From Kribbella voronezhensis (lineage in GTDB: Bacteria > Actinomycetota > Actinomycetes > Propionibacteriales > Kribbellaceae), in the NCBI RefSeq assembly GCF_004365175.1, contig NZ_SOCE01000001.1:5339403-5403402 (forward strand): 64,000 nucleotides of DNA, given 5' to 3'. The position numbers and the translations under genes are program-made. Under the pieces are notes generated by a model. The model ran no database searches and was not told where the DNA came from. It saw only the letters and a list, made by a program, of their open reading frames with translations. Of this stretch, positions 3,734-5,989 are shown piece after piece. Numbering within the stretch: position 1 is the stretch's first letter; each line of letters starts with the position of its first letter.

Positions 3734-5080
3734 TCAGTTGGAGTTCCCGAAAACCTCCTCGTACAGCTCCTTGAGTTCCTGAGCCGTCGCTTCCCGCCCG
3801 GTCGTGTCCGTGCGCACCTGTACGTGCCGCGCGAACTCGGCCTCCTCCGCCGACGACAGCCGTACGCCGTACGCCGTCTCCAGTACGTGCGCGATCCCGC
3901 CCTTGCCGGACTGGCTGTTCACCCGCACGACGGCCTCGTAGCCGCGACCCACGTCGGCTGGATCGATCGGCAGGTACGGCACTTCCCACGCGGCATCCGG
4001 GTCAGCCTCCCGGCGTACTGCGAACCCCTTCCGGATCGCGTCCTGATGGGTGCCCGAGAACGCGGTGTAGACGAGTTCGCCGACGTACGGGTGCCGCGGG
4101 TGAATCGGCATCCGGGTGCAGTACTCGACCGTCTCACGGATCCGGTCGATGTCGGAGAAGTCGATCATCGGGTCGACACCTTGTGCGTGCAGGTTCAGGG
4201 CGAGGGTGGCCAGGTCGACGTTCCCGGTGCGTTCGCCGTTGCCGAAGATGCACCCCTCGACCCGTTGCGCTCCGGCCAGGACGGCGAGCTCCGCGCACGC
4301 GATCCCGGTACCGCGGTCGTTGTGCGGGTGCACCGACAAGATGACCCCGTCACGACGCGGGATGAACTTGTGCATGTACTCGATCTGGTCGGCGTACACA
4401 TTGGGAGTGGAGGCCTCGATCGTGGCCGGCAGGTTGAGGATCACCGGTCGCTCGGCCGTCGCGTCCCACACCTTGGTGACCTGGTCGGCCAGCTCGAGGA
4501 TGAAGTCCGGCTCGGTCAGGTTGAACACCTCGGGCGAGAACTGGAACCGTACGGTGTCGCCGGCCAGCCGGTGGATCTGCTCGGCGCCCACTCTGATCAG
4601 CTCGGCCAGCTCGTCCCTGGTCCGGCGCAGCACGATGTCTCGCCAGACCGGTGCGGTGGCGGCGTACAGGTGGACGACGACCTGGCCGCGGAAGCCGGCG
4701 ATCGATTCGAGGGTCCGCTCGATCAGGTCGGGCCGGGCCGGGGTGAAGACCACGATCGTGACGTCGGGTGGGACCAGGCCGGAGGTCGCCAGCAGCCGGA
4801 CGAAGTCGAAGTCGGTCTGCGAGGCGGACGGGTAGCCGACCTCGATCTCTTTGTAGCCGATGGCAACCATCAGCTCGAAGAAGCGGCGTTTGCGGTCGGT
4901 GTCCATCGGCTCGGCCAGCGCCTGGTTGCCGTCGCGCAGGTCGACCGGGACCCACAGCGGCGCGGCGGTGATCCGGCGGTCGGGCCAGTCGCGGTCGATC
5001 GGAGGGATCGGCACCTTGGCGAAGATGTCGCGATAGCGGTGGCTGGGCATGGGGGAGTGCTGCTGGCGGTTCCAGTACAT
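3734..5080 (-). CDS. leuA: 2-isopropylmalate synthase, short form
   Basis: This enzyme condenses acetyl-CoA with 2-oxoisovalerate, the committed step of leucine synthesis. The HMGL-like TIM barrel is complete, including LRDGNQAL with the metal-binding Asp, [24 protein letters not shown] (the His-x-His metal motif) and [13 protein letters not shown]. The protein ends at about residue 448 with [10 protein letters not shown], so the roughly 120-residue leucine-binding LeuA dimer domain found in usual actinobacterial LeuA is absent; a hairpin follows the stop at once. The ATG at 5080 has AAGGA about 7 nt upstream. The open frame extends further 5', but that stretch overlaps the gntR start and lacks homology. 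Control is probably by the upstream leader. Confidence 0.85.
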
Positions 5081-5108
5081 GGGTGGGTCCTTCGGCTCGA
5101 AGCACGGG

Positions 5109-5147
5109 GACCGGCAGACGACAGCGCTCCACGGAGGGGCGCCGGTC
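5109..5147 (-). promoter_or_regulatory. Attenuator-like hairpin between leader peptide and leuA
   Basis: An inverted repeat pairs 5141-5147 with 5109-5115 (GACCGGC/GCCGGTC) and encloses a second weaker pairing (GCGCTCC with GGGGCGC). It starts three bases after the leader stop codon and ends about 18 nt before the leuA ribosome-binding site. This is where a structure responding to ribosome stalling would sit. There is no U-run, so control of translation or Rho access is as likely as intrinsic termination. Confidence 0.55.
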
Positions 5148-5150
5148 GAA

Positions 5151-5243
5151 TCAGCTCCCGCCGTGGCGGCCAAGAAGGAGGCGACCCAGGAGCAGGCCGG
5201 CGCACGAGAGGCGGCCGGCCGGAAGCTGCGACTGGGAGAACAT
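5151..5243 (-). CDS. Leucine-rich leader peptide upstream of leuA (30 aa)
   Basis: An ATG frame between the leuA start and the divergent gntR encodes 30 residues, with a run of six leucines in nine codons: LLLGRLLLG, read from CTG CTC CTG GGT CGC CTC CTT CTT GGC. Eight of the 30 codons are leucine. The stop at 5153-5151 is directly followed by a hairpin and then leuA. Leucine-codon leader peptides are known to attenuate leuA in actinobacteria, so charged tRNA-Leu level probably sets leuA expression. Identification rests on composition and position; the peptide itself has no other expected function. Confidence 0.75.
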
Positions 5244-5307
5244 ACGACCACCGTAACCCGAGATGAACTCCTCAGACAAGCTGATAACTCCTGCGACCAG
5301 CTGCCCG

Positions 5308-5320: not shown

Positions 5321-5989
5321 ATGATCCGCCGTCATCCGCTGGCCGAGCAGGCCGCCGAGGAGTTGCTGCGCCGGATCGGCGACGGCGAATGGGCGCTGGG
5401 CCAGAAGTTGCCCGGCGAGACGACGCTCGCCGCGCAGTTGGGGGTCGGCCGGTCCACCATCCGCGAGGCCGTCCGGGAGCTGGCCGGCAGGCGCGTGCTG
5501 GAGAGCCGCCAGGGCGCCGGCGTGTTCGTGATCGCGCAGCAGGCCGCGGAGGAGTGGGACCAGGTACTACGACGCGCCGGCATCACCGACGTGCTCGAAG
5601 GCAGGCTGGCGATCGAGTCCGAGGCGGCTCGGCTGGCAGCATCCCGGCGTACGCCGGCCGACCTCAAGAACTTCCGGCGCACCTTGGCCGACCGGGAGAA
5701 GGCGTCCGCGAGCGAGCCCGACGACCGGTATGTCGAGGCGGATCTCGCATTCCATCGGGCGGTCGTCACGGCGGCGCACAACGCCGTACTGAGCGAGCTG
5801 TTCGACAGCTTCCAGCCGCGGGTCCGGCGCGCGATGATCGACATGCTGCGACTGGACGACGAGCACCGGCATCGCCATGACCAGACCGCCCACCAGGCGA
5901 TCGCGGACGCCATTCGCGACCGTGATCCCGAGCTCGCCGCCGCGAAGACGCGCGATCATCTCAGCGCGGTCCGCAGCAGCGTGAACTAA
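5321..5989 (+). CDS. GntR family regulator (FadR/FCD subfamily)
   Basis: This 222-aa protein has an N-terminal winged helix (residues 8-70) with the GntR signature [20 protein letters not shown] and [22 protein letters not shown]-terminal all-helical FCD domain follows (residues 85-215), in which Asp and His residues ([26 protein letters not shown]) form the usual metal/carboxylate site. FCD regulators sense small organic acids such as pyruvate, lactate or sugar acids; the ligand here is not deducible. It is divergent from leuA, so leuA is a candidate target, though leuA has its own attenuator. Its 3' end overlaps the convergent neighbour by four bases. Confidence 0.85.

Follow-up and report, generated by a model that had tools for sequence, protein, structure and literature searches.

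The locus and its features

The window, by which we mean the whole stretch of 64,000 nucleotides that was analysed, belongs to an 8.03 Mb assembly of the genus Kribbella and contains a leuA gene preceded by a short leucine-rich reading frame, which the initial annotation took for a leucine attenuator without giving a strand. The whole arrangement of leader, repeat and gene (here leuA2) lies on the minus strand, and is faced by a divergent regulator gene. The features are, in window coordinates:

3734 to 5080, minus strand: leuA2, a 448-residue 2-isopropylmalate synthase with HMGL-like and IPMS_D2 domains and no LeuA_dimer domain, start codon ATG at 5080
5088 to 5093, minus strand: leuA2 ribosome-binding site GAAGGA, the exact complement of 5179 to 5174
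5109 to 5115, minus strand: 3' arm of stem B, GCCGGTC, the second half of the inverted repeat first annotated
5129 to 5140, minus strand: 3' arm of stem A, one base short in this copy compared with most relatives
5141 to 5147, minus strand: 5' arm of stem B, GACCGGC, the first half of that inverted repeat
5151 to 5153, minus strand: leader stop codon, inside the pseudoknot, between stem A and stem B
5154 to 5166, minus strand: 5' arm of stem A, formed by the final leader codons
5174 to 5179, minus strand: anti-ribosome-binding-site arm UCCUUC of the base stem, in the last Leu run CTC CTT CTT
5243 (ATG) to 5151 (TGA), minus strand: leader reading frame of 30 amino acids, eight of them Leu
5251 to 5256, minus strand: −10-like TTACGG, found by eye, 7 nt 5' of the leader ATG
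5268 to 5280, minus strand: conserved core CTTGTCTGAGGAG, between regulator and leader
5321 to 5989, plus strand: GntR/FCD transcription regulator, divergent from leuA2 and its conserved partner

The Leu-rich frame first proposed is thus present with all its eight Leu codons, and so is the inverted repeat beginning three bases 3' of the leader stop (5147–5141 with 5115–5109). The repeat does precede the ribosome-binding site, at a spacing of 15 nt rather than about 18, but it is not the simple hairpin envisaged, because a longer second helix that had been missed (5166–5154 with 5140–5129) makes it one half of a pseudoknot. Missed also was that the Leu codons at 5179–5174 are exactly complementary to the ribosome-binding site. 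A sigma-70 promoter scan of the region gave no site; judged from the −10-like hexamer, the leader probably starts at or near the 5' end of the transcript.

Conservation of the leader

Leaders from 38 genomes of the genus were aligned, the check proposed with the initial annotation. A leader stands before 23 of 25 leuA2 genes, with the repeat fully paired in the 23, and before the canonical leuA in 38/38. The core LLL(L)-(G/R/S)RHGGS recurs in 22 of the 23 leuA2 leaders, and the canonical leuA leaders of the genus are of the type MRHQLLLLRCRGEA (38/38). The window leader has two LLLG units, of which only the last uses CTC CTT CTT; its nearest relative (L006) has a 55-residue leader produced by tandem expansion of the Leu-rich unit, again with CTC CTT CTT only in the last. 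One leader (L026) has suffered a one-base insertion, and hence a frame shift, in the Leu run together with an altered ribosome-binding site, and at two leuA2 genes (L007 and L008) the leader is absent. The element is dispensable, given that two of 25 leuA2 genes are without it and one is frame-shifted.

At L007 and L008 the RNA element has been lost as a whole, and since the leuA2 ATG there directly follows the promoter region, their mRNA may be leaderless.

Beyond the genus, a set of named loci was formed from the best 80 of 580 candidates in the genome collection, and the element matches at E 4.5e-6 or better just upstream in 75 of these 80 leuA2-type loci, the misses being L098, L122, L138, L143 (where the contig ends) and L145. 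Among 135 fetched leuA-class elements (one of which, L070, is cut short by the contig end ahead of the gene), 121 yielded leaders, and a run of at least three Leu is found in 116 of the 121, with the last Leu of the longest run lying 6–7 residues from the stop in 111. The 14 giving no leader under the simple rule used comprise four Kribbella leaders whose starts lie upstream of the span covered by the rule, partial matches at L206–L208, and seven misfits with longer reading frames (L109, L142, L156, L166), a stop right after LLL (L114, L168) or none (L162). The leader MRFGLLLLSCRGEGL, present at four loci, is identical to the published LeuL1 of Streptomyces lividans.

The RNA fold

Three helices recur: stem A, in which the last leader codons pair with sequence after the stop, stem B crossing stem A, and a base stem joining the Leu codons to the ribosome-binding site. 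Folded by itself, the window copy stands out only mildly (z −1.86, with 9 of 200 shuffles doing as well), and so the case rests on conservation. In the 23 leuA2 rows of the genus the stem B repeat is paired in all cells and the base stem UCCUUC/GAAGGA in 94.9%; no pair has changed on both sides there, variation within leuA2 being too small for the test. Between the genus leuA types (61 rows, 60 distinct) three stem A pairs have changed on both sides. A covariance model (R1) trained on 61 genus sequences, the window sequence among them, finds the element in its own genome at E 6.6e-19, and at E 0.01 it has matches in 181 of 197 genomes of the class.

Covariation was followed in 70 elements, namely 30 fetched best matches and 40 picked mostly from genomes with two matches, which by gene are 59 leuA, 7 leuB, 2 leuC, one lone dimer-like reading frame and one contig end. 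Here 97.3% of cells are paired, against 36.7–59.9% in slid versions, which retain the relatedness of the rows, and 9 of 18 pairs show changes on both sides against a shuffled mean of 3.7, counts of this kind being inflated by related rows. Stem B, which lies outside the model, is paired in 94.7% of cells with double changes at four of its seven pairs. The observation is more than chance, and the window RNA is almost certainly the actinobacterial LEU element predicted upstream of leuA by Seliverstov et al. 2005 (PMC1262725), a match that together with the strong conservation upholds leader-peptide control of leuA as first suggested. Rfam searched over the whole window gives nothing at the gathering threshold, Leu_leader included, and an E-value search near the locus returns only two matches, Fluoride and COG3860, which are sub-threshold and lie on the opposite strand.

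A second leuA without the leucine-binding domain

The gene downstream is indeed a leuA, but a second one without the feedback domain and not the ordinary leuA of the host. Its product scores 680 bits against NCBIfam NF002991 (PRK03739; cut-off 455) and matches HMGL-like and IPMS_D2 with no match to LeuA_dimer (PF08502). Both LeuA_dimer matches of the genome sit elsewhere, which is why the window gene is regarded as leuA2. One belongs to the canonical LeuA (G000:C1:1110439-1111770), 55% identical to the window protein and encoded by a gene with its own LEU element; the other, on contig C3, resembles a citramalate synthase, judged by eye and from a weak match (29%).

The canonical leuA is present in 38/38 genomes of the Kribbella group and leuA2 in 25/38, at identities of 73–100%. 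In a sample of 147 genomes from the order, the best leuA2 match outside the genus is 60% identical, and 107 of the genomes have no match at E 1e-158. Among the best 80 of 580 candidates the closest protein is 93% identical and from K. monticola; relatives at about 69–73% occur in Nocardia, Rhodococcus, Mycolicibacterium, Microbacterium, Leifsonia, Amycolatopsis, a Streptomyces and others, with further ones in Pimelobacter and Nocardioides. In a quick tree of 112 rows (SH-aLRT support only, midpoint root) the leuA2 types stand apart from the host's own canonical LeuA with support 100, those of Kribbella forming one set of 13 rows.

An HMM of the dimer domain built in this analysis and run on the 80 named proteins and the window protein finds the domain in 53 of the 80 and not in 27, and it is absent from all 13 Kribbella leuA2-type proteins tested (12 named and the window's). 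Mapped on the tree, presence of the domain changes eight times, at least three of the changes being forced by well supported branches, and we infer these to be losses rather than gains. A remnant of the domain was looked for downstream of the domain-less genes (27 named and that of the window) and none was found. The LEU element precedes 26 of the 27 domain-less and 49 of the 53 domain-bearing named loci, so that across the 80 the element shows no visible association with loss of the domain, and it is not claimed as the causal replacement of the domain. As LeuA2 is without a leucine-binding domain, the LEU RNA may be its sole direct leucine feedback.

The regulator and the rest of the module

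The same divergent GntR/FCD regulator (53–95% identity) lies upstream in 75 of the 80 named leuA2-type loci, a match being absent at L124, L126, L132, L143 and L166. After the regulator start in these 75 the core CTTGTCTGAGGAG is exact in 67 and has one mismatch in eight, whereas shuffled controls have two mismatches in one case and three or more in the rest. The core, which is conserved across families, is a probable operator of the divergent regulator and/or part of a promoter. Since regulator and core are conserved across the named loci, leuA2 appears to travel as a module of regulator, shared DNA site, LEU element and enzyme, in which transcription control by the regulator would probably act on top of the RNA feedback.

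A palindromic operator, TCAG-N5-CTGA, was considered and set aside, being found at only 17 of 71 loci; the conserved part is the non-palindromic core.

Codon choice, pairing and the step controlled

At the final three Leu positions of the genus leaders (61 sequences), CTG is used in 0/182 and CTT in 91/182 cases, against 219/389 and 8/389 in 11 Kribbella reading frames taken as genes, the leaders being related so that their codons are not independent draws. Outside the genus the constraint eases at the fourth codon from the end of the run, which is CTG in 31/46. Leu codons rich in CTC and CTT are by nature complementary to most ribosome-binding sites. Of the 121 loci, 86 had a start that could be used, and at these a Leu run with its own site averages −10.94 kcal/mol, compared with −9.58 for swapped partners (20 swaps, the best −10.03) and −8.08 for shuffled sites. 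Pairing of the Leu run with the ribosome-binding site is supported by this, and the duplex in the window reaches −14.0 kcal/mol. When the Leu codons are redrawn according to host usage, the base stem loses little strength (−10.45, sd 0.28, best redraw −11.09), and so pairing does not fully explain the codon bias, which could arise from use of one tRNA-Leu isoacceptor.

What is found, then, is a conserved leader, two pseudoknot helices, complementarity of Leu codons and ribosome-binding site, and a near-constant distance from Leu run to stop. The best explanation overall, to which we give a probability of roughly 0.68, is that the Leu leader and pseudoknot control initiation of leuA2 translation. 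With leucyl-tRNA in good supply, the ribosome would run through the leader to its stop codon, leaving the Leu-codon run free to pair with the leuA2 ribosome-binding site, so that the base stem would close over the pseudoknot and leuA2 would be shut. When leucine is short the ribosome would stall on the last LLL codons and cover the anti-ribosome-binding-site sequence, and leuA2 would be translated; the sensing codons would thus double as the masking strand. The 6–7 residues to the stop, 18–21 nt, may correspond to the clearance that a terminating ribosome needs from the sensing codons, an estimate that derives from the size of the ribosome footprint. We infer the direction of the response, leucine starvation as its signal, and translation rather than Rho-dependent termination as the step acted upon. 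Taken together, the stop distance, the codon avoidance, the advantage of own pairs and the want of a terminator after the structure favour translational attenuation, and a LEU element working at translation is a rather probable account of the locus.

The attenuation first proposed probably does not take its classical, transcriptional form, in which stalling picks between terminator and antiterminator, intrinsic or Rho-dependent. A leader peptide with Leu codons would suit that form, and excerpts of the literature describe actinobacterial ilvB leaders with terminators; the region too has one terminator-like site, compared with 0.1 in shuffles. That site is a stem at 5199–5182 inside the leader, its T-rich tail being the Leu run CTCCTTCTT itself, and a scan of the region finds no terminator and no U-tract after either helix. 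As no terminator follows the structure, the locus does not look like a classical transcription attenuator. For S. lividans, the leader of leuA, leuL1, is likewise reported as leaderless and without a typical terminator in excerpts of PMC8079986, and the S. coelicolor mutation results of Craster et al. 1999, as cited in PMC1262725, do not fit classical attenuation. Control through transcription attenuation is unlikely here, though Rho-dependent termination may play a part.

The same fold before leuB and leuC

The leuA-trained covariance model also matches before leuB and leuC, and this spread of the fold is the main lead beyond the known LEU kind; among the matches listed in the openly licensed literature there is no report of the LEU fold at either gene. 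Eight leuB-type elements served to train a second model, whose top 30 loci across 197 class genomes are 14 leuB (eight of them the training loci), 15 leuA and one leuC (L081 among those checked). When 30 leuB loci, taken as the best matches from 98 genomes, were inspected, the element was present in nine (E 1.3e-8 or better; training genomes account for three of the nine) and absent from 21.

The leaders change with the gene. Those of leuA and leuC have Leu runs, whereas those of leuB mix Val, Ile and Leu, as in MLWTVRILRCRDEAR and MRHIFVLRCRGGAS. From the last branched-chain pair to the stop the leuB leaders (14 distinct; 21 rows, seven loci having been fetched twice) have 6 or 7 residues, and three leuC leaders have 8 instead of 6–7. 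The leuC-linked elements with LLL leaders are L192, L195 and L263, in genomes G256, G235 and G246 of family f39. The host itself has a third LEU-type element (G000:C3:295614-295750; L218, L219), which stands before a tiny reading frame, leuB and ilvE and is detected at E 2.7e-6 by the leuA model, in whose training it had no part; its leader MQFVVRLIRCRAGVR has Val, Leu and Ile codons, and the tiny frame that follows ends in MNRRDNGGEPKK.

A tiny conserved reading frame of about 27–37 residues, most copies ending near DRRDNGGETGH, also lies between element and leuB at L187, L191, L197, L203, L205 and L089. At L179 (genome G247) a weaker LEU-type match precedes a lone frame of about 142 residues that looks LeuA_dimer-like by eye, with the leader MVARRLVLVVPRRSGV.

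On balance we lean towards seeing the LEU fold as a codon-programmable scaffold across the branched-chain genes of Actinomycetes, with Leu codons before leuA, leuA2 and leuC, mixed Val/Ile/Leu codons before leuB and three versions in this one genome, and towards an RNA feedback able to replace protein feedback in the leuA2 module. The latter view is suggested by the leucine-binding domain having apparently been lost repeatedly with the element kept.

Other accounts of the locus

It was proposed in PMC1262725, from phylogenetic co-occurrence and S. coelicolor mutant data, that the element is the binding site of a helicase-like regulatory protein (Seliverstov and co-authors), the leader peptide then being incidental, and one sentence there states that Leu-codon changes were without influence on regulation, which weighs against the account favoured here. 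The switch from Leu to Val/Ile/Leu codons before leuB with the fold unchanged, and the nearly constant spacing between codons and stop, are more readily explained by a translated sensor, so that a protein site seems improbable. No better placed is the idea of a decaying remnant that arrived when leuA2 was transferred and has ceased to regulate: two genus members are without the element and one is frame-shifted, and the window copy is itself one stem A base short with a duplicated Leu repeat, but its base stem is exact and strong, CTC CTT CTT is kept and stem B is intact at 7/7 pairs. That the region encodes the N-terminus of a longer LeuA2 and is no leader, as an in-frame 533-residue reading frame from 5335 to 3734 would allow, is most improbable, for the open frame reaches only 451–477 residues in 13 of the 25 genus leuA2 genes, which means that the extension is not conserved, and what the named loci keep instead, in 75 of 80, is the RNA element.

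Relation to known systems and meaning

In the proteobacterial leu leader a leader peptide rich in Leu codons likewise precedes leuA. The corresponding Rfam family, RF00512, has no match in the window, whose structure is without a terminator after it. In translation attenuation of the erm type, a ribosome that stalls on the leader exposes the ribosome-binding site further downstream. The cysteine uORFs of mycobacteria, as cited in excerpts of PMC13236596, work by the same principle, and what would set the present locus apart from both is that the sensing codons are themselves the proposed masking strand. With the LEU elements of PMC1262725 the window copy shares the Leu-run leader, the pseudoknot and the base stem of Leu codons and leuA ribosome-binding site; unlike them, it precedes a second type of leuA without the allosteric domain, and the fold before leuB (Val/Ile/Leu) and leuC is absent from the text of that paper. 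Leu-run leaders are also described for leuA in S. lividans (leuL1, PMC8079986) and in Corynebacterium glutamicum (cg4015, PMC4046766), where they stand before the species' leuA, the excerpts of these two sources making no mention of a second, domain-less leuA.

The locus therefore adds a member to the known LEU kind, and its first interpretation was right in kind and is changed in mechanism and in gene identity. It may be relevant to the engineering of actinomycetes in which synthase expression is insensitive to leucine. It also sharpens the question of how LEU elements, predicted in 2005, act, since the host offers three natural versions of one device, at the ordinary leuA, at the domain-less leuA2 and at leuB-ilvE, and the swap from Leu to Val/Ile/Leu codons provides a built-in test of leader translation as the sensor.
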